From Thermococcus sp. 21S9 (lineage in GTDB: Archaea; Methanobacteriota_B; Thermococci; Thermococcales; Thermococcaceae), in NCBI RefSeq assembly GCF_012027635.1, contig NZ_SNUS01000001.1, positions 1,674,001 through 1,738,000 of the forward strand: DNA of 64,000 nucleotides, given 5' to 3'. The position numbers were made by a program, and so were the translations under genes. The notes under the pieces are model-generated. The model made no database searches, had not been told where the DNA came from, and saw only the letters and a list, made by a program, of their open reading frames with translations. Positions 6,142 to 25,668 of this stretch are shown piece after piece. The first letter of the stretch is position 1, and every line of letters starts with the position of its first letter.

Positions 6142-7625
6142 GGTATCACCCCGTAGAAGGTTATCTCCTCGACAAGCGGGTAGGCGAGGTAAGCCGAGAC
6201 CAGCGTCAGGACGATGAGAATCAAGAGCGACGCGGTTATTATCGGGTGGGTGCTGACCTTTTCGACGTTGGGCCTGCCGAAGACGTTCTTGGTAATCCAC
6301 TTGAGACCGACCCAGAGGAAGACGGCCGAATCGGTTAGGACCATTATAATCGGGAGCCAGGCCAGGGCGGAAACCTTGACGAGGCTCAGGTTGGTTATCA
6401 GCTCGGCCTTGCTGAATGCTATGCCCATCGGGGGAAGACCCGCCAGTCCGAGGAGCGCCACCGTCCACGCGAGGCCGTTCACGGGCAGGATTTCCCTTAG
6501 ACCGCTTATCCGCCTCAGGTCGAGGGTCCCGAGGGAGTACGTGAAGGTTCCGGCGGTGAGAAAGGCCAGGCCCTTGACGAAGGCGTGGGTCGTGAGCTGG
6601 AACATCGCGGCTTTGAGGCCGATGTCAAAGCCAGGTGCCTTGCCCGTGAGGCCGAGGACGGCGTAAGTCAATCCGGAGAACATTATTCCGGCCTCGGCAA
6701 CCGTTGAGTAAGCGAGCAGTCTCTTGGCATCTTTCTGAACCGGATAGTTGAGTATCGGGATGAGGAGCGTGAGGGAGACCATGACGGCCATGAAGTAGAA
6801 GACCCAGACCGGGAGGGGTCCGATGAACTGGATAACCCTCGCGACGAGGTAAACGCCCATCTCGACCATCGCCGCACCGTGAAGGAAGGCGCTCGCGGGA
6901 GTTGGGGCTTCCATCGCGTCCGGAATCCACGAGTAGGTCGGGAACTGGGCGCTCTTGGTGTAGCCCGCTATGAGCAGGGCCAGGAACAACCAGGGCTTTA
7001 CCTCGGGGGAAACCTTCGAGAGCGAGAACAGACTGAGGTCGTGGAGCTGGGTGAGGCCGATGTAGATGGCCGTGTAGAAGCCTATCATCGCCCCAACGTT
7101 CGGGATTATGAAGGCCTTGAAGCCAGCCCTCCTCGCCTCCTTCGTGTTGTAATAGCTCACGACGCCCCAACAGGCAAGCCCCATCAGCTCGAAGAAGATT
7201 AACAGGCTGAGGAACGTGGAGGAGTAGATGAATCCGAGGGTGGCGCCTTCAAAGAGCGTCATCCAGGCGTAGAAGAGTCCCCTGCCCTTTCCTCCCGGGT
7301 GCCCGACGTTTCTCTCGCTCATGTACTCGACGCCGTAGAACATGAATATGAATCCCGCAACGGCAACGACCGTACCTATCAAAACGCTCATGGGGTCGAT
7401 TATAAGGCCGTAAACCTCGCCGAACTGGGCGCTCTGGAGGTAGGTAATGTGAATCAGCTCCTCGTGGCCGAGGAGGTAGAGAACGGCAACGCCGAGCTGG
7501 GCAATCATCGCCGATACGAAAGATGCGAGCATTATCGCGTCCGCTTTCCTCTCGTCGAGCCTGAAGAGGATTAGTCCACCGATGAGCGGGACTGTGAAGG
7601 TTAACGTTGCGAGAAGGCCTATCAT
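6138..7625 (-). CDS. NuoL/MnhA-like proton-conducting antiporter subunit
   Basis: First gene of the Mrp-type operon, 495 residues, about 14 membrane helices. The segment YTKSAQFPTYSWIPDAM followed by PTPASAFLHGAAMVE is the NuoL/MnhA hallmark, with the helix-7 lysine K224 and the helix-5 glutamate E146 (FFELMG). It lacks the C-terminal DUF4040 and MbhE-like parts of a full MnhA, which are encoded separately downstream. Start ATG 7625 is preceded by a GGAGGGGG-type site and a TATA box about 50 bases upstream. Confidence 0.83.
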   Translation of the reverse strand: MIGLLATLTFTVPLIGGLILFRLDERKADAIMLASFVSAMIAQLGVAVLYLLGHEELIHITYLQSAQFGEVYGLIIDPMSVLIGTVVAVAGFIFMFYGVEYMSERNVGHPGGKGRGLFYAWMTLFEGATLGFIYSSTFLSLLIFFELMGLACWGVVSYYNTKEARRAGFKAFIIPNVGAMIGFYTAIYIGLTQLHDLSLFSLSKVSPEVKPWLFLALLIAGYTKSAQFPTYSWIPDAMEAPTPASAFLHGAAMVEMGVYLVARVIQFIGPLPVWVFYFMAVMVSLTLLIPILNYPVQKDAKRLLAYSTVAEAGIMFSGLTYAVLGLTGKAPGFDIGLKAAMFQLTTHAFVKGLAFLTAGTFTYSLGTLDLRRISGLREILPVNGLAWTVALLGLAGLPPMGIAFSKAELITNLSLVKVSALAWLPIIMVLTDSAVFLWVGLKWITKNVFGRPNVEKVSTHPIITASLLILIVLTLVSAYLAYPLVEEITFYGVIP

Positions 7626-9643: not shown

Positions 9644-9973
9644 TCACACCGCTGGGGCAAGGGCCCTAATGAGCTTTTTGGCCAGTCCCTCGATGCCGGG
9701 AATCCTGTAGGTCTCTCCCCTCAGCATCTTCCAGGCCCCGAAGAGGGCGTAGACGTACCAGAGGGCCAAGACGTAGAGCGACCAGCCGAACTCGGGGTAG
9801 CCGGGGTACATGTGCCAGGCTCCCATAAAGGCAATCCAGAAGAAAAACCCCACCACGCTGGAGTAAGCCGCGTGGGTCTTCGTTAGCTCGTCAGTATCTT
9901 TCATGAGGAGCAGGGGAATCCCCCCGACAAAGCCGAAGACATAGGCTATGAAAGCGTCGCTAAGCCTTCCCAT
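9644..9973 (-). CDS. Small membrane protein of the SQR/ferrochelatase operon
   Basis: A 109-residue protein with three predicted membrane helices, vaguely DUF4870-like. The segment FFFWIAFMGAWHMYPGYPEFGW is rich in aromatic residues and contains a histidine and methionine that could contact a cofactor, but no ligand motif is recognised. Its start overlaps the end of hemH by 14 bases, so the two are co-translated. Function unknown. Confidence 0.65.
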   Translation of the reverse strand: MGRLSDAFIAYVFGFVGGIPLLLMKDTDELTKTHAAYSSVVGFFFWIAFMGAWHMYPGYPEFGWSLYVLALWYVYALFGAWKMLRGETYRIPGIEGLAKKLIRALAPAV

Positions 9974-10856
9974 CTTCCCACCTCCTAAGCTCCTGGGCTA
10001 TCGCCGAGATGAGGTAATCGTGCCTGTGGTCAAGTTTAGCCCGGTAAAACCTCAGTCCGAGCTTTTCAGCAAATTCCCGGTATTCAACGTCGAGCTCGTA
10101 AAGCGTCTCGACGTTCTCAACGAGGAAGCTGAGCGGGTAAACCAGAACCTCCTCGACACCCTCCTCCCTGAGCCTTTCCAGGACCTCCGGAACCTCCGGC
10201 CCGAGCCAGTCGCCTTTTCCGAATTTGCTCTGGAAGGCCATCTCCCACTCGAGGTCAAATGCTTTCATAACCCGTTTTGCCAGCTCGGTGTGGCTCCTCA
10301 GGTAGGGGTCACCTCTCTCAATGACCTTCCTCGGCAGGCTGTGGACGCTTAGAATCACGTATGGGTTCTCAAAACCGCTCTCAGCTAAGCCCTTCTCGAT
10401 GTTGTGCCTGACCCAGGCGATGAACCTCTCGTTGTTCCACCACTCCCTGATGTAGGGCCTATCGCTGAAGAGCTCCCTGACCTTGAGCAGACACCTCTCG
10501 GTTGTCGAGCTGGAGTAAACATGGTAGAGCGGAAATACGAGGTCGAAGCCGTCGCTCAGCTCCTCGAGGAGGGGTTTAGAATAGCACATGCCGAGGGTTA
10601 TCTCGTGACCGGTTCTCTCGCTCACCAGCCCTGCAATCTCGCGCATGTAATCCACGAGCGGGCTTTTCCCGCCCATAACCGCGTAGTGGCCCCTAACTGC
10701 CCGGGCGCGGGCCTTGGCTATGCCTCGGATTATCGCCTTTGCCCCGGGCACGTCGAGGCCTATATCCTTCCTCACGTCGTAGAGAAAGCGGAATATGAAG
10801 TCCTCAACTTCATCGGGCGTCGTCGGCGCTCCCATGTAGGTGAAGAGAACCCTCAA
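9960..10856 (-). CDS. hemH: Ferrochelatase
   Basis: A 298-residue chelatase inserting ferrous iron into protoporphyrin IX or coproporphyrin III. The ferrochelatase signature is matched: VILSVHSLP followed by ERGDPY, with the catalytic histidine at H172. Other family blocks are PLYHVYSSSTTERC (111-122), FQSKFGKGDWLGPEV and ENVETLYELDVEY with the metal-path glutamate E250; the usual DH before ETLYE is EN here. Start: TTG 10856, six bases after GGAGGTGA, gives the normal N-terminus (RVLFTYMGAPTTPDEV). Its presence is unexpected because Thermococcales generally lack heme synthesis. A CbiK/CbiX-type cobaltochelatase is less likely given the signature. Confidence 0.88.
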   Translation of the reverse strand: MRVLFTYMGAPTTPDEVEDFIFRFLYDVRKDIGLDVPGAKAIIRGIAKARARAVRGHYAVMGGKSPLVDYMREIAGLVSERTGHEITLGMCYSKPLLEELSDGFDLVFPLYHVYSSSTTERCLLKVRELFSDRPYIREWWNNERFIAWVRHNIEKGLAESGFENPYVILSVHSLPRKVIERGDPYLRSHTELAKRVMKAFDLEWEMAFQSKFGKGDWLGPEVPEVLERLREEGVEEVLVYPLSFLVENVETLYELDVEYREFAEKLGLRFYRAKLDHRHDYLISAIAQELRRWEDGKA

Positions 10857-10885
10857 GGTTTCACCTCCAAAAGAAAATGAAAGGG

Positions 10886-11305
10886 TCACTTCTCGTTTAA
10901 AACCGCGCCGAGGTTCTTCGCGAGGGTCAGGAGGAATCCGAGTCCCTTCTGGACGTCCTCGTCGCGGAGGTAGCCAATCGCTCCCGTCATTCCGACCTTC
11001 GGAACCTCCTTGGGGTTGGTCTCTGCGAGGGCCTTGAGCAGGGCCCTAACAAGCTCCTCGGTGTTCCAGCTGAGCTTTCTGACGTCCTCAACCTCGAGCT
11101 CCCTGACCGGTTCGAGGGCGGAATTTCCTATCGCGGTGAGTCTTAGGACGGCCTTCTCCTCGGCTATGGTTTCAAGCAACTTATCCCCGTTCTCGGTCAT
11201 GGCCTTGAGTATTCCGAGGGTTCCGCTCTTCTTCAAAGCCACGGCAACCTCTATCAGTTCCTTAACGGCGGAAATCTCTTCGGGGGTGAAATTGAGCTCG
11301 CCCAT
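10886..11305 (-). CDS. DUF1641 protein, SQR partner
   Basis: A 139-residue helical soluble protein of the DUF1641 type, a family that is recurrently encoded next to sulfide:quinone oxidoreductases and other flavoprotein dehydrogenases; its biochemical role is not established. The C-terminal half contains the family-like GMTGAIGYLRDEDVQKGLGFL. The start ATG 11305 follows GAGGTGAGG and lies 10 bases after the SQR stop, so the two are one transcriptional unit. Confidence 0.8.
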   Translation of the reverse strand: MGELNFTPEEISAVKELIEVAVALKKSGTLGILKAMTENGDKLLETIAEEKAVLRLTAIGNSALEPVRELEVEDVRKLSWNTEELVRALLKALAETNPKEVPKVGMTGAIGYLRDEDVQKGLGFLLTLAKNLGAVLNEK

Positions 11306-12608: not shown

Positions 12609-12812
12609 ATGGCAGTACAGGCGGAGACTGGTAAGGAGGTCCTTGCCGGATTGGTGGCAATAGTGCTCGCGTTTGTCTTTGTACTGATTGCGTTCTTGAT
12701 GCACAACGTTGTCTGGGTAGTGCCAGGTATGGTCTTTGGAATAGCCTACATGATTTGGGTTTTCCACCGGCACGGCATGCCATCGGTCAACAGTCCGAAA
12801 GCAAAAGTTTAA
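12609..12812 (+). CDS. 67-aa two-helix membrane protein next to cydAB
   Basis: A 67-residue protein with two membrane helices (about 11-31 and 35-52) and a basic C-terminus. Start ATG 12609 follows GGAGGTG at ideal spacing. It has its own promoter and lies 119 bases upstream of cydA. Small single- or two-helix subunits (CydX, CydS, CydH) accompany bacterial bd oxidases; this protein has no recognisable sequence similarity to them that I can claim, but its position makes an accessory-subunit role possible. Otherwise unknown. Confidence 0.7.
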   Translation: MAVQAETGKEVLAGLVAIVLAFVFVLIAFLMHNVVWVVPGMVFGIAYMIWVFHRHGMPSVNSPKAKV

Positions 12813-12931: not shown

Positions 12932-14455
12932 ATGGACCCGGTACTGCTGTCGAGAATACAGTTCGCCCTGACCGCGGGTTACCACTGGATTTTCGTGCCC
13001 GCGAGCATAGGAATGGCCTTCATGGTCTTCCTGCTCTGGACCATGGCGGCTATAACCAACGAGGAGCAGTGGCACAAGGCGGCGAAGTTCTTCACCAAGT
13101 GGCTGGGAGTGTTCTTCGTCCTCGGCGTCCCAACGGGAATCGTCATGGAGTTCGAGTTCGGTGCAAACTGGGCCAACTACTCGGTTTTCGTCGGCTCAAT
13201 CTTCGGTCCTCCACTGATGCTTGAGGGTCTCTTTGCCTTCGCCCTCGAGTCGACGTTCCTCGGCGTGCTTCTCTTCGGTATGGACAGGCTCCCAAGGGCC
13301 ATAACCTGGATTTCATCGTTCTTCGTGTTCATCGGTTCGAGCCTTTCTGGACTCTGGATTCTCATCGCCAACAGCTGGCAACAGACACCGACAGCCTACA
13401 TCATCAAGGACACACCCCTCGGCCCGAGGGCTGAGCTGACCGACTTCATGAAGGCCGTCTTCAACCCGCTCCTGGTTAGCCAGTACACCCACACCATAAA
13501 CTCCGCAATCCTCACCGGTGCCTACATAGTCGTCGCGGTCAGCGCCTACTACCTGCTCAAGAAGAGGCACGTCCAGGTCGCGAGGAGCGCACTCGCCCTC
13601 GGCATAGTAGTTCTCGCGATAAGCTCGGTAATCCAGCTCTATCCGACCGGCCACGAGGAAGGCATGGTCATAGCCAAGTACCAGCCGACGAAGCTTGCCG
13701 CCGACGAGGGCCTCTTCCACACCGAGAAGGGTGCGCCGATGGTGGTCTTCGGAATCGTTGACGAGAAGAACCAGCAGGTCAAGTACGCCATCGAGATTCC
13801 CAAACTGCTGAGCTGGCTTGCCTTCGGTGACTGGAACGCGCAGGTGCTCGGCCTCCACGACGCGGCAAGGTACGTCTGGTACGAACAGGTTCTCAACAAC
13901 CCCAACTACGAGAACGAACAGGTCAAGAAGCAGGTCATAGACAGCCTCATGCAGGCCTACGGTATAAACCCCAACGACCCCCAGGCCAACGAGAAGATGG
14001 TCAAGGTCCTTGAGGACGCCCTGCCGGTGGCCTTCATGTTCTACGCCTACCGCGTCATGGTCGGCCTTGGAACGCTCTTCATAGCCATCGGCGGTCTCGG
14101 AGTGCTCCTCCTCCTGCTCGGCAAGCTCTACGACGCTCGCTGGTTCCTCAAGGTGCTCGTCGTTACCGTTCCGCTTCCGTGGCTCGCGGGCGAGGCCGGC
14201 TGGTTCACCCACGAGGTCGGAAGACAGCCGTGGATGGTCTGGGGAATGGTCACCGACAAGACCGGTGCCTCCGCCAACGTTTCAGCAACAAGCGTGCTGA
14301 TTACGCTGATAGCGTTCGTCGTCGTGTACAGCATACTGTTCTACATCTGGCTCCACTTCGTCAGGAAGCTCATCAGGGAGGGTCCCGAGCCGGTTGAGGG
14401 TGACGTCACCGCGAAGCCGGTCCCCGCCGTTAGCACCGCGGGAGGTGGTCAGTGA
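12932..14455 (+). CDS. cydA: Cytochrome bd quinol oxidase subunit I
   Basis: A 507-residue membrane protein, the heme-bearing subunit that oxidises quinol and reduces O2. Visible hallmarks: the first heme ligand H18 in RIQFALTAGYHW; the second histidine in SQYTHTINSA; the methionine ligand of b558 in YRVMVGLGTL; quinol-loop residues in KYQPTKLAADEG; and the signature GRQPWMVWG preceded by GEAGWFTHEV. About nine membrane helices. ATG follows GGGGTGG. The stop overlaps cydB by four bases. Length is normal for the short Q-loop class. A bd oxidase is atypical for a supposedly strictly anaerobic Thermococcus. Confidence 0.95.
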   Translation: MDPVLLSRIQFALTAGYHWIFVPASIGMAFMVFLLWTMAAITNEEQWHKAAKFFTKWLGVFFVLGVPTGIVMEFEFGANWANYSVFVGSIFGPPLMLEGLFAFALESTFLGVLLFGMDRLPRAITWISSFFVFIGSSLSGLWILIANSWQQTPTAYIIKDTPLGPRAELTDFMKAVFNPLLVSQYTHTINSAILTGAYIVVAVSAYYLLKKRHVQVARSALALGIVVLAISSVIQLYPTGHEEGMVIAKYQPTKLAADEGLFHTEKGAPMVVFGIVDEKNQQVKYAIEIPKLLSWLAFGDWNAQVLGLHDAARYVWYEQVLNNPNYENEQVKKQVIDSLMQAYGINPNDPQANEKMVKVLEDALPVAFMFYAYRVMVGLGTLFIAIGGLGVLLLLLGKLYDARWFLKVLVVTVPLPWLAGEAGWFTHEVGRQPWMVWGMVTDKTGASANVSATSVLITLIAFVVVYSILFYIWLHFVRKLIREGPEPVEGDVTAKPVPAVSTAGGGQ

Positions 14456-15450
14456 TGGACTACGCGACTGCCTGGTTTTACTTTTCCGCCTTCCTCCTCG
14501 GAATGTACCTGGCGTTTGACGGCTTCGACCTTGGAATAGGAACGCTCCTCGCGTTCATTAAGAACCAGAGGGACAGGGACGTCCTCGTTAACACCATCGC
14601 GCCGGTCTGGGATGGCAACGAGGTCTGGTTCATCACCTGGGGTGCCGGTCTGTTCGCGATGTGGCCAGCGCTCTACGCGACGCTCTTCAGCACGTTCTAC
14701 CTCGCGGTCTGGTTGCTCGCGTTCCTGTTCATATTCAGAGCTGTCGGCTTCGAGTTCAGGAACAAGAACAAGGACCTCTGGGATAAGCTCTTCGCCCTCG
14801 TCAGCGCGTTAATCCCGCTCGTCATCGGCGTCATAGTCGGCAACCTCGTCATGGGAATCCCCATCGACGCCAAGGGCTTCCACGGCTCACTGCTGACGCT
14901 CTTCAGGCCGTACCCGCTCATAGTCGGCCTCTTCGTGCTCTTCGCCGTGACCTGGCACGGGGCCAACTGGGGCGCCTACAAGACCACCGGAAAGCTCCAG
15001 GAGACCATGAGGAAGTACGCCTTCACATTCTGGGTGCTTACAGTGGTCTTCCTGCTCCTGACGGTAATCGGCATGAAAATCTGGGCCCCGCTGAGGTTCG
15101 AGAGGCTCATGACCCCGCTCGGCCTCTTCCTGACGGTCGTAATCCTCGTCGCGGGACTGCTCGACGGCTACCTCATCAAGAAGGGCGTCGACAAGCTGGC
15201 ATTCTACATCAGCTGGCTGGCCTTCCCGCTGGTCGTCGGCCTAATCTACTACACGATGTACCCGTACTGGGTCATCTCGACCACCGACCCGAACTTCAAG
15301 CTCAGCATACACGACCTCGCGGCGTCGCCACTGACGCTCCAGGCGGTCCTTGGAGTCTCAGTAATCCTGGCAGTAATCATCATGACCTACACCCTCTACG
15401 TCTACAAGATGTTCGGCGGGAAGGTCACCGAGGCGGAGGGCTACTATTAG
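14452..15450 (+). CDS. cydB: Cytochrome bd quinol oxidase subunit II
   Basis: A 332-residue CydB with eight or nine membrane helices. The N-terminal block FLLGMYLAFDGFDLGIGTLL with the conserved DGFDLG and the following WDGNEVWFITWGAGLFAMWP are diagnostic. It forms the heterodimer with CydA; the gene overlaps cydA (ATGA). A short inverted repeat and T-run follow the stop, and a new TATA box begins the next transcript. Confidence 0.95.
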   Translation: MMDYATAWFYFSAFLLGMYLAFDGFDLGIGTLLAFIKNQRDRDVLVNTIAPVWDGNEVWFITWGAGLFAMWPALYATLFSTFYLAVWLLAFLFIFRAVGFEFRNKNKDLWDKLFALVSALIPLVIGVIVGNLVMGIPIDAKGFHGSLLTLFRPYPLIVGLFVLFAVTWHGANWGAYKTTGKLQETMRKYAFTFWVLTVVFLLLTVIGMKIWAPLRFERLMTPLGLFLTVVILVAGLLDGYLIKKGVDKLAFYISWLAFPLVVGLIYYTMYPYWVISTTDPNFKLSIHDLAASPLTLQAVLGVSVILAVIIMTYTLYVYKMFGGKVTEAEGYY

Positions 15451-15502: not shown

Positions 15503-15546
15503 CGTTACAGCAAAGTTCTTTTTGGAAACTAAAGACGGTGGTCGAA

Positions 15547-16749
15547 ATGCACAGAGGCAAATCTACCGGCTGGCCCTACGACAGGAAGCCGGTCCTCGTC
15601 TTCTGGGAGACGACGAAAGCCTGCCAGCTCAAGTGCAAGCACTGTCGCGCTGAAGCGATACTCCAGGCACTGCCGGGCGAGCTGAGCACCGAGGAAGGAA
15701 AGGCCCTCATCAATTCCCTCACCGACTTCGGAAGGCCCTACCCGATACTCATCCTCACCGGTGGCGACCCGCTCATGAGGAAGGACATCTTCGAGCTCAT
15801 CGAGTACGCCGTTGAGAAGGGCATTCGCGTTGGTCTCGCCCCCGCTGTAACACCGCTCCTGACAGAGGAAACAATCGAGAGAATCGCAAAGAGCGGGGTT
15901 AAAGCAGTGAGCATAAGCCTCGACAGCCCGTTTTCAGATGTCCACGACGCAATCAGAGGCATAGAGGGGACGTGGGAGAAAACCGTCTGGGCCATCAAGG
16001 AGTTCCTAAAACATGGCCTAAGCGTTCAGGTGAACACGGTTGTGATGCGCGAGACCGTTGAGGGACTGCCCGAGATGGTGAAGCTCCTCAAAGACCTTGG
16101 CGTCGAAATCTGGGAGGTCTTCTACCTCGTTCCGACCGGGAGGGGCAACTTCGAGAGCGACCTAAGGCCGGAGGAATGGGAAGACGTCACGCACTTCCTC
16201 TATGAAGCCTCGAAGCACCTCCTCGTGAGGACCACCGAGGGTCCGATGTTCAGGCGAGTGGCTATAATGAGGAAAGCGCTGGAGGAGAAGGGACTCGACC
16301 CCGACGAGGTTCTCAAGCCCGGGGAACTCTACTTTAGGCTGAAGAAACGGCTCGTTGAGCTTCTCGGCGAAGGGAACGAGGCGAGGGCACAGACGATGGG
16401 AACACGCGACGGGAAGGGAATCGTTTTCATCGCCTACAACGGCAACGTCTACCCGAGCGGTTTCCTGCCCTTCAGCGTCGGCAACGTCCGCGATAAAAGT
16501 TTGGTTGAGATTTACAGGGAGAGTGAACTTATGAAAAAGCTCCGCTCGGCCGAGTTCGAGGGGCGCTGTGGGAAGTGCGAGTTCAGGGAAATCTGCGGGG
16601 GAAGCAGGGCGAGGGCCTACGCATATCACCTGAACCCTCTCGCCGAAGACCCGGCCTGCCCGTACGAGCCGGGCTCATACATCAGGCTCGCCGGCGAACT
16701 CGGGCTGAACCTTCCAATCGGAACATTCGGAGGGCAAAAGCCTATTTGA
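15547..16749 (+). CDS. Radical SAM/SPASM protein, TIGR04053/AhbD-NirJ-like
   Basis: A 400-residue radical SAM enzyme. The SAM cluster motif is C26-x3-C30-x2-C33 within WETTKACQLKCKHCRAEA; the GGDP motif is in ILTGGDPL. The C-terminal SPASM region has CGKCEFREICGGSRARA and a late cysteine (DPACPYEP) for an auxiliary cluster. The sequence fits the TIGR04053 group, related to heme-d1 NirJ and the alternative heme synthase AhbD that decarboxylates Fe-coproporphyrin. Leading the operon with a porphyrin-type importer and HemG-like protein, it is a candidate for a late heme step, but peptide modification is not excluded. ATG 15547 preferred over GTG 15538 because GGTGGT lies just upstream. Confidence 0.78.
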   Translation: MHRGKSTGWPYDRKPVLVFWETTKACQLKCKHCRAEAILQALPGELSTEEGKALINSLTDFGRPYPILILTGGDPLMRKDIFELIEYAVEKGIRVGLAPAVTPLLTEETIERIAKSGVKAVSISLDSPFSDVHDAIRGIEGTWEKTVWAIKEFLKHGLSVQVNTVVMRETVEGLPEMVKLLKDLGVEIWEVFYLVPTGRGNFESDLRPEEWEDVTHFLYEASKHLLVRTTEGPMFRRVAIMRKALEEKGLDPDEVLKPGELYFRLKKRLVELLGEGNEARAQTMGTRDGKGIVFIAYNGNVYPSGFLPFSVGNVRDKSLVEIYRESELMKKLRSAEFEGRCGKCEFREICGGSRARAYAYHLNPLAEDPACPYEPGSYIRLAGELGLNLPIGTFGGQKPI

Positions 16750-16759
16750 GGTGATGGAA

Positions 16760-17815
16760 ATGAGATGGAGCGGTCTAATCCTGTCGGTCGTTCTTCTCCT
16801 CGCGGTCGTTTCGGCCGGTTGCGTGGGCAACTCAACCGAAACCTCAAGCAAAGCAATGAACGAGGTAACCGTGAAGGACTTCTCGGGAAGGAACGTCACG
16901 GTTAAAGTTCCGGTTCAGCGGGCGGTCGTTCTCTCGACTTCCGCCCTCGAGATAATCCAGCTCCTCAACGCGAGCGAGCAGGTCGTTGGTATTCCAAGGG
17001 AGGCCCAGTACGACGCTTTACTGAGTGAAAGCCTGAAGAACAAGACCGTCGTCGGCGCGAGGCTCAAGATTGACGACTGGGAGAAGGTTTTAGCCCTAAA
17101 GCCCGACCTAATAATTGACCTCGACCTGAAGAAGTTCTACAACGTTGATGAATTACTCAACCGCTCCGCCAGCTACGGAATTCCGGTCGTCCTGCTGAGG
17201 GAGGACAAACTTGAGGACATACCCAGGGCCGTTTCGCTCCTCGGCCAGCTCTTCGGAAAGGAGAAAGAGGCCAAGGCCTTCGACGACTACTTCAACGAGC
17301 AGGTGAAGGAGGTTAGGGCCATAGCCTCAAAGATTCCAGCGGAGAAGAGGAAGAAAGTGGTAATGATACAGCCGATAATGGGCAAGCTCTACCTCGTCAA
17401 CGGCAACGACGTCCTTGCTCAGGCCGTCAGGCTCGTTGGGGCGGACTACCTCGTGAACCTGACCTTCAACGGCTACACACCGGTTAGGGTCCCGATGGAC
17501 AGGGAGAAGATAATCGCGAGCTACCGCGATGCAGACGTCGTAATCCTCCTCACGAGCGCCGTAACCCCGTACGACCAGGTCGAGAAGCTCCGGAAGGAGA
17601 TGCTCAGCGACGAGGCCTGGAGGGGCATTAAGGCCGTCAGAGATGGCAACGTCGTAATCCTCAGGGCGGACATGGGCAAGGACTCCTTCCTCCGCTGGAG
17701 TCCACGCTTAGCAGTGGGAATCTGGGTCATCGGCAGGGCAATCTACCCGGACTACTACCCCGACTGGAACGAAAAAGCTAAGGAATTCCTGAAGAGGTTT
17801 TACGGCCTCTCCTGA
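16760..17815 (+). CDS. Fe/heme/cobalamin-type ABC substrate-binding lipoprotein
   Basis: A 351-residue BtuF/FhuD/HmuT-type binding protein. N-terminal lipoprotein signal (LLLAVVSAGCVGN) with the lipid cysteine, a Ser/Thr linker, then the two-lobed helical-backbone fold (VKDFSGRNVTVKVPVQRAVVLS to SFLRWSPRLAVGIWVIGR). It delivers ligand to the FecCD permease and ATPase encoded three and five genes downstream. Ligand class cannot be read from sequence; context with ferrochelatase, HemG-like and cytochrome bd genes suggests porphyrin or heme. ATG 16760 is chosen for spacing to GAGGTGA; GTG 16751 and ATG 16754 are alternatives. Confidence 0.85.
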   Translation: MRWSGLILSVVLLLAVVSAGCVGNSTETSSKAMNEVTVKDFSGRNVTVKVPVQRAVVLSTSALEIIQLLNASEQVVGIPREAQYDALLSESLKNKTVVGARLKIDDWEKVLALKPDLIIDLDLKKFYNVDELLNRSASYGIPVVLLREDKLEDIPRAVSLLGQLFGKEKEAKAFDDYFNEQVKEVRAIASKIPAEKRKKVVMIQPIMGKLYLVNGNDVLAQAVRLVGADYLVNLTFNGYTPVRVPMDREKIIASYRDADVVILLTSAVTPYDQVEKLRKEMLSDEAWRGIKAVRDGNVVILRADMGKDSFLRWSPRLAVGIWVIGRAIYPDYYPDWNEKAKEFLKRFYGLS

Positions 17816-17836
17816 TTTTCCTTTTGGGGTGGGACG

Positions 17837-18706
17837 ATGATAGCGGTCTTTCCAGCGAGTCTCGCGGAAATCCTCAAGCTCGTCGGGAAAGCCGGGGAGA
17901 TAGCCGGGGTGAACGAGGAAATCAGGCTCGACCCCTGCCTGCCGGAGCTGAAGGATAAGCCGGTCATCGGAAAGTACCTCAAGCGGAGCAAGAGGACCTA
18001 CTGGGACGTTCTGGAGAAGCTTAAGCCGGACCTTATCCTCGACTTCAAGGTTGAGAACCTGCACTCCGGGGACGAGCTGAGGGCCTTTGGGGAGCGTATA
18101 GGGGCAAGGGTCGAGCTGGTTGACTTCGAGACCGTTGAAGGCCTCGTCGAGGAGAGCAGGAGGATAGCCGAACTAACGAGGGGCGACTTTTCAAAGCTCG
18201 GCGGGTTCTATGAGAAGCACCTAACGAGGCTGGGCGAGATAACTGAGGGCATCGAAGAGAGGCCCAAAGTCCTGCTCACCTACCGGAACTTCAACGTCGT
18301 AACGAGGACCAACGTTCTGAGCGACGCGGTTAGAAAAGCCGGGGCGATAAACCTCGGCGAAAGGATACGGACAAAGCGGAAGGTCTATCCGGTAAAGAAG
18401 GAGCGCTTCTTCAGGGCCTTCGGCGATGCGGAGCACCTCTTCCTGCTCACGAGCATAATGACGGACAGGGAGAAGATGGAGGAGATAAGGGACGAAATCC
18501 TTGACTCGGCCGAGTGGAGGGCAATCGAAGCAGTTCAGCTTGGAAACGTGAACATAGTCGGCTCGGCCCTCGACCTTGAGAGCTTCATGCGCTGGAGTCC
18601 CCGCATAATTCCGGGAATCTACCAGCTCGGAAGGTTTATACACGGAAGGGCCTTTCCGAAGTGGGAAAATGTCGCAAAGGAACTCTACTCGCTCTGCGGT
18701 GTTTGA
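17837..18706 (+). CDS. Leaderless paralogue of the binding protein (probably cytoplasmic)
   Basis: A 289-residue protein clearly homologous to the preceding binding protein: both end with LLTS, an I-R-E-L helix, WRxIxAVxxGNV, SFxRWSPR and a GRxI segment. It has no signal peptide, no lipobox and no membrane segment, starting directly with the first strand (MIAVFPASLAEILKLVG). ATG 17837 follows GGGGTGGG. A cytoplasmic binding protein between binding protein and permease is unusual and suggests an intracellular carrier or chaperone for the imported ligand, or a sensor of it. It could also be a decaying duplicate, but the reading frame is intact and densely packed in the operon. Confidence 0.75.
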   Translation: MIAVFPASLAEILKLVGKAGEIAGVNEEIRLDPCLPELKDKPVIGKYLKRSKRTYWDVLEKLKPDLILDFKVENLHSGDELRAFGERIGARVELVDFETVEGLVEESRRIAELTRGDFSKLGGFYEKHLTRLGEITEGIEERPKVLLTYRNFNVVTRTNVLSDAVRKAGAINLGERIRTKRKVYPVKKERFFRAFGDAEHLFLLTSIMTDREKMEEIRDEILDSAEWRAIEAVQLGNVNIVGSALDLESFMRWSPRIIPGIYQLGRFIHGRAFPKWENVAKELYSLCGV

Positions 18707-18707
18707 A

Positions 18708-19643
18708 ATGAAGCGGTTACTCCTGGCAATCCTCCCGGCGGTTGCGGTGCTCCTCGGGGTCTTCGTGGGTAGCTACCCGACCAACCCGCTCCACCTTGAT
18801 GACTTGGCCAGGGCAGTGATATGGGAAATCAGGCTTCCGAGGACTCTTATGGGGGTCTCGGCAGGAATGGCCCTGAGCCTGGGCGGGATGACCCTTCAGG
18901 CGGTTTTCAGAAACCCTCTCGTTGACACCTACATTCTGGGTGTAGCATCGGGAGTGGCCTTCGGCGCGGCACTGGCCGTCGCTTTTCTCCCCTTCATAGG
19001 TCTCGCACCGCTCGCGCTCCTCTTCGGCCTCTTGGCGGTTTTCTTAGCTTATTACCTCGCGCGCGTCAACGGCAGGGTCTCTACCGTCTCGCTAATCCTC
19101 GGCGGAATAATCGTTACTGCCCTTTTCTCCGCACTCCTTTCCCTCCTTGAACTGCTCCTTCCGAGCGAGAGCTTATCCGGTTTAGTCGTCTGGCTGATGG
19201 GAAGCTTGGCGAGCTCAACGTGGAAGACGGTGGTTTATTCCCTTCCCGGAGTCGTCCTCATAGCCGTGCTCCTCTACCTCCTCCGCTGGAACCTGAACGC
19301 AATGAGCCTCGGCGACGAGGCTGAGCTCCTCGGCCTGAACGTTTCCTTCTGGAGAGGGATTTTCGTGTTCCTGTCGGCCATTCTAACGGCGCTCGTGATT
19401 TCCTTCACGGGTATAATTGGCTGGGTCGGGCTGATAGTCCCGCACACGGCGAGAATGCTCGTCGGGCCCGAGCACTCGAAGCTGATTCCCGCAACAATCT
19501 CGATTGGAATAACCGTTATGGTCTTGGCGGATGTGATAGTCCGCCTTCTTCCGGGGGACATCCCCGTCGGGATAATAACGACCCTCGTGGGTGTTCCATT
19601 CTTCGCGTATCTCCTCAGAAAAACCGGAGGTGGTTGGAGTTGA
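18708..19643 (+). CDS. FecCD-type ABC transporter permease
   Basis: A 311-residue BtuC/FecCD-family permease with about ten membrane helices. Family blocks: IRLPRTLMGVSAGMALSLGG, QAVFRNPLVDTYILGVASG, and FTGIIGWVGLIVPHTARMLVGPEH near the C-terminus. Two copies would form the channel for the substrate delivered by the upstream lipoprotein. Start ATG 18708 is one base after the previous stop. The stop overlaps the TTG start of the flavodoxin gene. Confidence 0.9.
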   Translation: MKRLLLAILPAVAVLLGVFVGSYPTNPLHLDDLARAVIWEIRLPRTLMGVSAGMALSLGGMTLQAVFRNPLVDTYILGVASGVAFGAALAVAFLPFIGLAPLALLFGLLAVFLAYYLARVNGRVSTVSLILGGIIVTALFSALLSLLELLLPSESLSGLVVWLMGSLASSTWKTVVYSLPGVVLIAVLLYLLRWNLNAMSLGDEAELLGLNVSFWRGIFVFLSAILTALVISFTGIIGWVGLIVPHTARMLVGPEHSKLIPATISIGITVMVLADVIVRLLPGDIPVGIITTLVGVPFFAYLLRKTGGGWS

Positions 19644-20263
19644 GAATTCTCATCGTTTACACGACCCGCTACGGAACGACCGAAAGGGCCGTGGAGTTGG
19701 CCAAGAGGCTCTTCGAGGAGGAAGGCCACGAAGTGGAGGTAAGGGAGGTTAAGGAGAACCCCTCGCCGAGGGGCTACGACCTGGTCGTCATGAGCGCACC
19801 CGTTTACCGCGACGGCCCGCACTGGGATTTGACGGACTGGATAAGCGAGCACAGGGAGGAGCTGGAGGAGATACCCAAGGCGTTCTTTCTGGTGGCGATG
19901 CACTTGGCGGGCTCGGTCTTCATGGGGAAGCTCCACGGGGGAATAGCCTACTCCCAGCCACTGATAGAAGCCTTCGAGGTTCCGCCCTTCTACGGAACGC
20001 TCATCGGGGGCGAGATTGACGTTGAAAGGCTCAGCGACGAGGACAGAAGGAAGATGAGGAGGTTTTATGCCGTTTTGGGAGAGAAGCTCGAAAGCAAGAG
20101 CCTTTACAGGGAGGAGGACGTTAAAGCGTTCGTGAGGAGGACTCTATTGTATTACGACTGGTTCGGGAAGCACTTCAGGCGGGGCGAGGTCGATAAGGCC
20201 AAGGACTTCGACTTCATGGAGAAGGTAAGGGAGATGGAGGCAAGGCTCGATGCTGAGGGCTGA
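19640..20263 (+). CDS. HemG-like flavodoxin-domain protein (putative protoporphyrinogen dehydrogenase)
   Basis: A 207-residue flavodoxin-fold protein with the FMN-phosphate loop YTTRYGTTERA. Its architecture parallels bacterial HemG: after strand 3 (VVMSAPVYRDGPHWDLTDWI) the segment HREELEEIPKAFFLVAMHLAG aligns with the HemG block around PSAFYSVNLVA, and a late YYDWFGK resembles the YTDWEQ region. HemG oxidises protoporphyrinogen IX using a quinone. It is inserted between permease and ATPase genes of the porphyrin-type importer, strengthening a tetrapyrrole role. TTG 19640 is preferred (eight bases after GGAGGT, TTGA overlap with the permease stop). Other flavodoxin-family oxidoreductase activities remain possible. 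Confidence 0.7.
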   Translation: MRILIVYTTRYGTTERAVELAKRLFEEEGHEVEVREVKENPSPRGYDLVVMSAPVYRDGPHWDLTDWISEHREELEEIPKAFFLVAMHLAGSVFMGKLHGGIAYSQPLIEAFEVPPFYGTLIGGEIDVERLSDEDRRKMRRFYAVLGEKLESKSLYREEDVKAFVRRTLLYYDWFGKHFRRGEVDKAKDFDFMEKVREMEARLDAEG

Positions 20264-21020
20264 AAACCTCTCGTACTCCTACGGGGACTTCGAAATCGAG
20301 GGGGTTAGCCTGGAGGTTGAGACGGGTGAGTTCGTCGCCCTAATCGGGCCGAACGGCGCGGGGAAGAGCACGCTCCTGAGTCTAATCTACGGCCTGTTGA
20401 GGCCCGAAAAGGGACGCGTCATGGTTGAGGGAAGGGACGTTCTAAGGCTGTCCCCCAGGGAGCGGGCGAAACTGCTCGGCTACGTTCCTCAGAGCCACTT
20501 CCCGACGTTCCCATTCAGGGTTCTCGACTTCGTTCTCCTCGGGGCAACCCCTGAACTCGGGGCCTTCGGCTCGCCAGGGAAGGAGCACAGGGAAAGGGCT
20601 GAAAGGTTGCTCAAACACTTCGGCCTCGATGCTTATCGGGAAAAACCCTACACTTCTCTAAGCGGTGGACAGAAAAGGCTTCTCCTCCTCGCGAGGGCGA
20701 TGATGACGTCGCCGAAATACCTCCTCCTCGACGAGCCGACGAGTGAGCTCGACCTCAAGAACGCCCTCCTTGTCCTCGGAACCGTTAAGAGGCTCGCGAG
20801 GGATGGTGTTGGTGTCCTAGCGGTTCTCCACGACCCCAACTTAGCCTACCTTTTCGCCGACAGGGTCGTCCTCATGAGGGACGGAAGGATAGTGGCTGAA
20901 GGAAAGCCCTCGGAGGTCCTGTCCGAGGAGCTTTTGAGCGGGCTTTACGGGGTTAAGCTTAAGGTGATAGAGTGCAACGGGGAAAGGGTTTTGAGGGTCC
21001 TTCCGGAGGTGCTCCCATGA
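20250..21020 (+). CDS. FecE/BtuD-type ABC ATPase
   Basis: A 256-residue ATP-binding protein: Walker A GPNGAGKST, Q-loop around GYVPQ, signature SLSGGQKR, Walker B LLLLDEPTSELD and the H-loop histidine in AVLHDPN. The sequence belongs with ATPases of iron-siderophore, heme and cobalamin importers and pairs with the permease at 18708. It overlaps the flavodoxin gene by 14 bases and ubiD by four. Confidence 0.9.
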   Translation: MLRAENLSYSYGDFEIEGVSLEVETGEFVALIGPNGAGKSTLLSLIYGLLRPEKGRVMVEGRDVLRLSPRERAKLLGYVPQSHFPTFPFRVLDFVLLGATPELGAFGSPGKEHRERAERLLKHFGLDAYREKPYTSLSGGQKRLLLLARAMMTSPKYLLLDEPTSELDLKNALLVLGTVKRLARDGVGVLAVLHDPNLAYLFADRVVLMRDGRIVAEGKPSEVLSEELLSGLYGVKLKVIECNGERVLRVLPEVLP

Positions 21021-23360: not shown

Positions 23361-24329
23361 ATGAGAAAAGCTTTGGCGTTGCTCCTAATCGGGCTGGTTG
23401 TGATGGTTTCGGGTTGCATAAGCTCGAACTCGACCACAAACACCTCCACAAAGGCGGAGCTTCCCACCGTTAAAGCCGCGACCCTGCTTGGAGGAATCAG
23501 CACGCTCGATATAATGCAGGCCAAGGGTTTTGACAGGGAGAACGGCTTCAAGGTCGAGGTTCTCAGGCTCGGCAAGACCCCCGACATAATAGCGGCCCTC
23601 GAAAAGGGGGAAACGGACTTTGCGGTCATTCCCGCTGAGATGGCGGCTAAGTTGGCCCAGAGCGGGGTTAGAATAAAAATCATCGGCGTTGACATGTTTC
23701 AGAACCAAGCGATAATCGGGAAGGAGGATATGAACCCCGCCGAGCTGAGGGGTAAGAAAATCGGCGCCGTCGTCGCTTCCGGAACCTTCAAGCTCTTCCA
23801 GGCTTACATGAAGGTCCTCTACAACCTCACTCCAGAGGATTACACCGTCGTGAACGTCCCGCCCGGCTCGGTTGAGGACTCGCTCAAAAGCGTTGACGCC
23901 GTCGTAATCTGGGAGCCGATTGTAAGCCAGCTTATAGTGAAGAACTACACGGTAATAGCGACGTTTTCAGAGCTCTGGAACGAGGCCAGAGAGCGTGGCA
24001 TAGTTCAGGGACCGCCGGTAATGCTCGTCTGGGTCGTCAGGGAGGACTTCCTTGAAAAGCACAGGGATTTGGTCGATGCCTTCATAAAGGCCCAGATTGA
24101 GAGCGCCGAGTTCTGGAAAACTCACCCCGCCGAGACGAAGGAAATCTTCGGAAAGCTCTACCACCTCGATGAAAAAACGCTTGACCTTCTCTACAACAGA
24201 ACAGAAATTAACGACGAGAGGCTCAACGATGAGCTGATAACCGGCATCAAGAGCGAGTGGAAGCTGGCCTACCTCGGGGGCTACCTGAAGGAGAACCCCG
24301 AGAACCTCGACATCTTCTACAGGGGTTGA
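23361..24329 (+). CDS. Tau/Ssu/NMT1-type ABC substrate-binding lipoprotein
   Basis: A 322-residue binding protein with lipoprotein signal (GLVVMVSGCISSN), Thr/Ser-rich linker and an NMT1/SsuA-like fold (GGISTLDIMQAKGFDRENGF, then AVIPAEMAAKLAQSG and VVIWEPIVSQL). Relatives bind sulfonates, taurine, pyrimidine precursors or aromatic acids. It follows ubiA directly (ATG one base after the stop, with GGAGGG) and is the first gene of an importer embedded between ubiA and ubiE; an aromatic quinone precursor is a plausible ligand by context only. Confidence 0.85.
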   Translation: MRKALALLLIGLVVMVSGCISSNSTTNTSTKAELPTVKAATLLGGISTLDIMQAKGFDRENGFKVEVLRLGKTPDIIAALEKGETDFAVIPAEMAAKLAQSGVRIKIIGVDMFQNQAIIGKEDMNPAELRGKKIGAVVASGTFKLFQAYMKVLYNLTPEDYTVVNVPPGSVEDSLKSVDAVVIWEPIVSQLIVKNYTVIATFSELWNEARERGIVQGPPVMLVWVVREDFLEKHRDLVDAFIKAQIESAEFWKTHPAETKEIFGKLYHLDEKTLDLLYNRTEINDERLNDELITGIKSEWKLAYLGGYLKENPENLDIFYRG

Positions 24330-24331
24330 GC

Positions 24332-25060
24332 ATGAGGGGCTGGCTCTACCTTTTCCTCTTTGCACTGGCCTCATGGCTCGTCCTGTCCCACCTGTATCCA
24401 GCCCTAATCCCCACCCCGGCTGAGACTTTGGCGTTCTACCGCGAGGTTGGGCTTTCCCTAATCCTCTCCTCGCTTCTGCTGACGCTCTACCACAGTTTCT
24501 CCGGCTTTCTGGTCGCTTCCCTTCTGACGGGCCTCGCGATGCTTCTGGCGCTCTACTCAAAGGCCTTCAGGGACTTTCTGAACGCTTTAAACGTCTTCCT
24601 CCAGAGCGTCTCGGTCCTCGTCTGGACGATAGTCTTCATAATGCTCTTCGGCGTTACGAGTTCAATCGCGACGATACTCGTTACCGCGATGGCGTCCTTT
24701 CCGGCACTGCTTTCGGCCGGAGTGAGCTCGAGCGAAAAGGTGATAGAAAAATACCGCCCGCTGATAGTTCTTCTCAAACCCTCAAAGCTTCAGCTCTACC
24801 GGCACTTCATCGTCCCGGGAACGCTCCCCGAGATGGTCTCGGCAGGCAGAGTCGCCCTGGGAATAGCGCTCAGGATAAGCGTCGTTGCCGAGGCTTTTGG
24901 CTCCGCTGGCGGAATCGGCTACCAGCTCGTCTACTCCTACGATTTGGGAATTAAAGCCGGAGTCTTCGCGTGGGCACTGCTCCTCATAGCGCTTATGATA
25001 GCCCTCGACCAGCTTTTACTAAGGAGGCTCGAGGAATGGGTGAAAGGCTGGTACTGGTGA
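24332..25060 (+). CDS. Tau/Ssu-type ABC transporter permease
   Basis: A 242-residue inner-membrane permease of the SsuC/TauC family with about six helices. The cytoplasmic EAA-type loop is YRHFIVPGTLPEMVSAGRVALG, which contacts the ATPase. Start ATG 24332 lies two bases after the binding-protein stop; the longer frame upstream only overlaps that gene. Partner genes flank it. Confidence 0.88.
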   Translation: MRGWLYLFLFALASWLVLSHLYPALIPTPAETLAFYREVGLSLILSSLLLTLYHSFSGFLVASLLTGLAMLLALYSKAFRDFLNALNVFLQSVSVLVWTIVFIMLFGVTSSIATILVTAMASFPALLSAGVSSSEKVIEKYRPLIVLLKPSKLQLYRHFIVPGTLPEMVSAGRVALGIALRISVVAEAFGSAGGIGYQLVYSYDLGIKAGVFAWALLLIALMIALDQLLLRRLEEWVKGWYW

Positions 25061-25668
25061 GAAATCTGAAAAAGTCCTTCAGCGAGCCCATACTCGACGG
25101 GGTTAGCCTTGAGGTTAGGGCCGGCGAGGTGGTCGGCCTCATCGGGCCGAACGGGACCGGAAAGAGCACCCTCGTGAAAATTCTGGCGGGAGTTGAGAAT
25201 CCCGATTCGGGCGAGGTCTTTGTGAAGAACCCCTCTGTCCTCTATCAGGAGGACTACCTTCTCCCCTGGAAGAGGTTGAGGGACAACGTCTGCCTGCCGG
25301 CCCGCTTCAGGGGAAGGGAGTGCAGGCTCGAATACGTTGAGAGACTCGGCCTGGAGAACTACCTCGACCTCTATCCAAAGGAAGTGAGCGGGGGGACGAG
25401 GAGGAAGGCCTCTCTCCTGCGCGCCCTGCTCATGGACTTCGACGTTCTAATTCTGGACGAGCCCTTTACCGGCCTCGACGCGCGCTCCAAAGAAGAACTT
25501 CTTTCCATAATTCGGGAATTAGCTAATTCTGGAAAAGGTGTTCTGGTCGTCTCGCACCAGCTCGAGGAGCTCTTCAAGGTCGCCGACAGGGTCTACCTCA
25601 TAGGTGGAAGGCCCGCGAAGATAAAGAAGGTCCTCGGGAGGGAGGAGCTTGGTAAAGGAGCTCTTTGA
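25036..25668 (+). CDS. Tau/Ssu-type ABC ATPase
   Basis: A 210-residue ATPase, shorter than the usual about 250. Walker A GPNGTGKST, Q-loop PSVLYQEDYLLPW, signature VSGGTRRKASL (SGG kept, final residues non-standard), Walker B VLILDEPFTGLDA and H-loop VSHQLEE are present, so it should be functional. The YQEDYLLPW segment is typical of nitrate/sulfonate-type transporters. ATG 25036 follows AAGGAGG. It overlaps the permease by 25 bases and ubiE by 20. Confidence 0.87.
   Translation: MGERLVLVRNLKKSFSEPILDGVSLEVRAGEVVGLIGPNGTGKSTLVKILAGVENPDSGEVFVKNPSVLYQEDYLLPWKRLRDNVCLPARFRGRECRLEYVERLGLENYLDLYPKEVSGGTRRKASLLRALLMDFDVLILDEPFTGLDARSKEELLSIIRELANSGKGVLVVSHQLEELFKVADRVYLIGGRPAKIKKVLGREELGKGAL

Follow-up and report, generated by a model that had tools for sequence, protein, structure and literature searches.

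A leaderless paralogue of an ABC importer's binding protein in Thermococcus genomes with cytochrome bd: a possible cytosolic tetrapyrrole carrier

The movement of imported heme or porphyrin inside the cell is poorly known, and a Thermococcus with cytochrome bd and without HemB and HemC needs such a path. In the 64,000 nucleotides of Thermococcus sp. 21S9 analysed here (the window), two adjacent genes encode homologous binding proteins, the first a lipoprotein and the second, referred to here as the twin, a protein that begins without a leader. This raises the question of what a second copy of an importer's receptor does, and on which side of the membrane. A literature search found no paper on this Thermococcus cluster, on TIGR04053, or on cytochrome bd together with ferrochelatase in Thermococcus.

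The gene pair and its surroundings

The features of the locus, with coordinates in the window, are:

9960-10889, - strand: ferrochelatase HemH (TIGR00109, 169.7 bits, passing the cut-off of 124.6)
12932-14455, + strand: cytochrome bd oxidase subunit I (cydA), a heme user (PF01654, E = 5e-148)
14452-15450, + strand: cytochrome bd oxidase subunit II (cydB), named from its position and a reading of its sequence; it adjoins cydA in relatives too
15538-16749, + strand: radical SAM/SPASM protein TIGR04053 (522 bits, cut-off 395)
16760-17815, + strand: lipoprotein substrate-binding protein, paralogue of the twin, with lipobox AGC (PF01497, E = 9.9e-25)
17821-17836, + strand: Shine-Dalgarno stretch of the twin, ggggtgg type, just 5′ of the start codon
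17837-18706, + strand: the twin, a leaderless Peripla_BP_2 protein of 289 aa (Pfam match, ATG start, 16 leaderless orthologues)
18708-19643, + strand: FecCD-type ABC permease (PF01032, E = 7.4e-78)
19634-20263, + strand: flavodoxin-domain protein, a distant HemG relative (PF12724)
20250-21020, + strand: ABC ATPase, scoring best with the model for the heme ABC transporter ATP-binding protein (219.8 bits, cut-off 261)

Six of these genes form a block in the order AhbD-like radical SAM, lipoprotein, twin, FecCD permease, flavodoxin and ATPase, with the cytochrome bd genes on its 5′ side and UbiD/UbiA quinone genes directly 3′ of the ATPase. The lipoprotein gene probably starts at the ATG at 16760 rather than at the listed GTG at 16751, and its stop codon lies 21 nt before the twin, whose ATG is preceded at ~5 nt by the ggggtgg stretch; the permease ATG (18708) is one base past the twin stop codon. 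For the radical SAM protein the next-best model is the AhbD heme b synthase, at 306 bits below its cut-off of 500. The earlier note had placed the twin next to ferrochelatase and HemG-type genes. The flavodoxin is indeed two genes downstream, but the HemG name is weak (30.2 bits against a cut-off of 142), and HemH lies ~7 kb off on the opposite strand.

Two further features flank the block. An NMT1/SsuA-type binding lipoprotein with its permease and ATPase (23361-25668) is situated inside a cluster of UbiD, UbiA and UbiE genes and is conserved in relatives; it is possibly an importer of a quinone precursor, in which case the region would be one for the salvage of both heme and quinone. Just 5′ of cydA there is a small membrane protein ORF (~12610-12812), 60-65% conserved in two other genomes (G019 and G057) and without a family match, which is a candidate for an extra cytochrome bd subunit.

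The twin matches the Pfam model Peripla_BP_2 (PF01497) over residues 3-241 with E = 1.4e-6 and 28.3 bits against a gathering score of 27.5, and with the scores of two orthologues (30.1 bits in G030, 19.9 in G048) the match is borderline; it has no NCBIfam match. With the lipoprotein of the preceding gene it shares 33% identity, and a profile-profile comparison of the two gives a probability of 100% and E = 1.4e-45 over 277 columns. The LLTS, WRxI/VxAVxxGNV and RWSPR blocks, from which the pair had been recognised as homologous, align and are largely invariant in both proteins. By these comparisons the twin is a class III (Peripla_BP_2) binding-protein homologue. The best NCBIfam match of the lipoprotein is IsdE, at 53 bits far below the cut-off of 298.65. 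In a tree the twins group as a single clade with a long stem (1.72 changes per site), adjacent to the lipoproteins together with the binding proteins of genomes G018 and G023, from which the duplication looks old and single.

A binding protein without a leader

The lipoprotein carries a signal sequence and a lipobox (AGC) in 16/16 genomes and its partner has no leader in any of them, so that the earlier description of the pair, made from the window, holds across the set. In all 16 cases the twin begins with the strand that corresponds to 'AVVLSTSA' of the lipoprotein. It lacks the signal peptide or anchor of the extracellular binding proteins of ABC importers, with a stop codon or another frame just upstream, and its hydropathy over 19 residues peaks at 1.40, compared with 2.52 for the lipoprotein. 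A GGGGTG or GAGGTG stretch is found just before the start codon in every genome, and the start codon itself is TTG in three relatives. An upstream in-frame signal, to which the earlier note had pointed as evidence against its proposal, is present in none of the 16 genomes at the level of sequence. A hidden leader or membrane anchor is ruled out by the 16 leaderless starts and the hydropathy, and the twin is very probably cytosolic.

The twin could nonetheless reach the outside if stop-codon read-through joined it to the lipoprotein; the product would then be a two-domain binding protein outside the cell, comparable to the tandem fusions found in other Thermococcaceae. Both ORFs are in frame in the window, with a single TGA between them. 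However, the pair is out of frame in seven of the 16 genomes and two genomes have a TAA stop, which excludes read-through or frameshift fusion as a conserved mechanism, and a Shine-Dalgarno stretch precedes the twin in all; we regard such a fusion as scarcely credible. It is also very improbable that the twin is a decaying, functionless duplicate. Only ~33% identity to the paralogue is left, as decay would predict, but pairwise dN/dS is 0.08-0.33 (in the lipoprotein range or somewhat higher), and the gene is full length without internal stops in 16/16 genomes. These values rule out a pseudogene, and the twin is a real gene under purifying selection.

Distribution and the supply of heme

Among 94 Thermococcaceae genomes the twin is present in 16, each time paired with a lipobox-bearing lipoprotein, while cydA is present in 18 and HemH in those 18 plus one fragmentary genome. 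The twin occurs in 16 of the 18 cydA genomes versus 0/76 without cydA (Fisher p 3e-16, for counts within one genus and uncorrected for relatedness), an association that is in part due to common ancestry. Strong scores for the TIGR04053 radical SAM protein are likewise seen in Thermococcaceae genomes solely alongside cytochrome bd and HemH.

The two cydA genomes in which no twin was seen differ in kind. In G057 the contig breaks off within the radical SAM gene. The complete genome of G019, which UbiD, cydA and HemH place next to the window genome, lacks exactly the six-gene block. At its cydB-UbiD junction (L038 ~7341-7500, - strand) the 3′ end of the ATPase gene is left as the codons for VRVLPEVLP and a stop; this scar and the junction indicate that the six genes were lost together as a unit, with cytochrome bd and HemH staying. 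Judged from its genome, the import block is dispensable in G019. Loss in related genomes, which the earlier note had also held to count against its proposal, is thus limited to this one true deletion, the other absence being a contig end.

Outside Thermococcus no twin was found among 115 genomes of the phylum. A pattern scan of 84,980 species, which detects near relatives only, returned just two close Thermococcus relatives, and a plasmid search with the lipoprotein gave distant binding proteins only.

HemB and HemC are absent from 11/11 genomes tested, with positive controls, which agrees with a published survey table (PMC3004389) that gives no heme-pathway genes for Thermococcus or Pyrococcus. 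Cytochrome bd needs heme, and without HemB and HemC the cell has to import the ring. G018 and G023, in which cytochrome bd, HemH and the twin are all absent, also have a relative of the importer; its identity to the window importer is 51-53% for the lipoprotein, 64% for the permease and 61% for the ATPase. It directly follows a radical SAM gene that scores best with the ChuW/HutW model (180 bits, below the cut-off of 400), with FeoB just upstream (L039, L040). ChuW/HutW is an anaerobic heme-degrading enzyme, and the cluster is probably one for anaerobic heme-degrading iron uptake. The importer therefore occurs both where heme is used and where it is presumably degraded, suggesting that the twin goes with use of the ring and not with import as such; its occurrence only where the ring appears to be used is evidence from context, not proof. 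The homologue of the HemG-like flavodoxin in G023 is split over two frames (L040 8667-9208), as if recently broken, and G018 has no homologue.

A possible carrier and the alternatives

The co-occurrence of the twin with cytochrome bd and ferrochelatase in organisms without HemB and HemC makes a link to imported tetrapyrrole the best reading. We suggest that the gene for the importer's binding protein was duplicated and that the leaderless copy became a cytosolic ligand-binding protein. The lipoprotein would catch an external tetrapyrrole (heme, coproheme or metal-free porphyrin) and the FecCD permease and ATPase would move the ring inside, where the twin would take it up, keep it soluble and out of harm, and pass it to the AhbD-like radical SAM protein, the HemG-like flavodoxin, ferrochelatase or cytochrome bd. 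A free porphyrin would require HemH, and coproheme the AhbD-like protein. We infer the cytosolic location, the ligand and the hand-over, and judge the chance that the twin is a cytosolic carrier for importer-delivered tetrapyrrole to be somewhat short of even. More tentatively, if the copy shed its leader yet stayed in the operon to receive the same tetrapyrrole inside the cell, a single ABC importer would be flanked by an outside and an inside catcher of one fold, and this in an organism whose heme comes entirely from salvage. If the twin does carry the ring, it would be an intracellular carrier built from the importer's own receptor, and the locus would offer a compact, heat-stable gene set for testing heme salvage step by step.

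The intracellular porphyrin or heme carrier proposed in the earlier note fits a protein that is very probably cytosolic, conserved, under selection and linked by co-occurrence to cytochrome bd and ferrochelatase, but no conserved pattern of axial heme ligands was recognised. Invariant residues are enriched in the cleft loops of the twin (0.47 versus 0.30 elsewhere, shift test 0.011, with loops positioned from the lipoprotein AF2 model and chosen by hand), and a ligand site therefore seems to be kept. Cys34, Cys287 and Tyr47 are invariant in the twins and missing at the equivalent places of the lipoprotein, and Tyr47 sits in a loop aligning near the 'GQPM' stretch of IsdE. Tyr47 and Cys34/Cys287 are only candidates for heme ligands. 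A conserved His/Met/Tyr pair as in known heme-binding proteins was not recognised in the alignment of either twin or lipoprotein; for the lipoprotein this would fit a metal-free ring and proves nothing.

The AF2 model of the lipoprotein has a pLDDT of 91, and that of the twin is only fair, at 70.8 with the first 53 residues below 50; the poor N-terminus may stem from the six-row alignment, although the lipoprotein still reached its value with the same rows. A sequence search with the alignment of 16 twins found no solved chain. A mixed alignment and a fold search returned class III proteins of several ligands (iron-siderophores, B12, metals, heme), with none singled out.

Since the fold neighbours of both proteins include binders of iron-siderophores and B12, the twin might instead carry or hold another ligand, such as a corrinoid, an iron chelate or a quinone precursor, with the importer serving something other than a tetrapyrrole for heme use. 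The best-scoring model for the permease is BtuC, and a quinone-synthesis cluster lies directly 3′. This is unlikely, however, as the importer stands beside the ChuW/HutW-like gene and FeoB in G018 and G023 and with cytochrome bd and HemH elsewhere, and the block loss in G019 left the quinone genes intact.

Rather less probable is that the twin has turned into an enzyme, or into a scaffold on which the radical SAM protein, the flavodoxin or ferrochelatase works, the fold then serving for catalysis or docking rather than for carriage. Structural classifications group this fold class with ferrochelatase, and the two invariant cysteines peculiar to the twin and the long stem branch could be taken in this sense, but the interlobe blocks LLTS and RWSPR are common to the lipoprotein, which fits retained binding. 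Weaker again is the case for a sensor that would detect the imported ligand in the cytosol and feed back on the importer from inside. The gene lies between those for the lipoprotein and permease with almost no spacing and its product has the fold of the external receptor, but we know of no precedent for the Peripla_BP_2 fold in such a role, and G018 and G023 keep the importer without the twin.

Among known systems, the twin resembles IsdE, HmuT/ShuT, BtuF and CeuE, extracellular class III proteins (PF01497) with the same fold, domain model and operon setting of FecCD permease and ATPase, but differs from them in having no signal peptide or anchor and in sharing its operon with a second, leader-bearing copy. 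A leaderless family of Peripla_BP_2 proteins annotated as 'cobalamin-binding protein' (L057-L059) shares both the domain and the leaderless start; as annotated, its members in Thermus oshimai, Haloferax larsenii and Qipengyuania citrea begin at the first strand or a few residues from it. To call the twin a new use of this fold, as the earlier note did, was therefore too strong. A FecCD importer always accompanies the twin but is missing next to the three loci that were inspected, and BLASTP of the twin against one member, that of Thermus oshimai, gave no significant similarity (E 4.9). What is new is the pairing of a leaderless copy with the binding protein of the importer itself. CgdH2 of Campylobacter jejuni is a cytosolic heme chaperone that takes heme from ferrochelatase (PMC10320005); what it has in common with the twin, a protein known from sequence, is only the proposed job of holding a tetrapyrrole inside the cell near ferrochelatase.

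Fused tandem Peripla_BP_2 proteins (L026-L037, L043) are common in Thermococcaceae, with 635 aa in the window genome and 706-774 aa in others, and FecCD and ATPase genes adjoin the one in G092, where a single neighbourhood was read. Their binding domains are duplicated as in the twin and lipoprotein, but unlike that pair both are in one chain, and they form a separate duplication in the tree, such that duplication of the binding domain arose more than once in Thermococcaceae.
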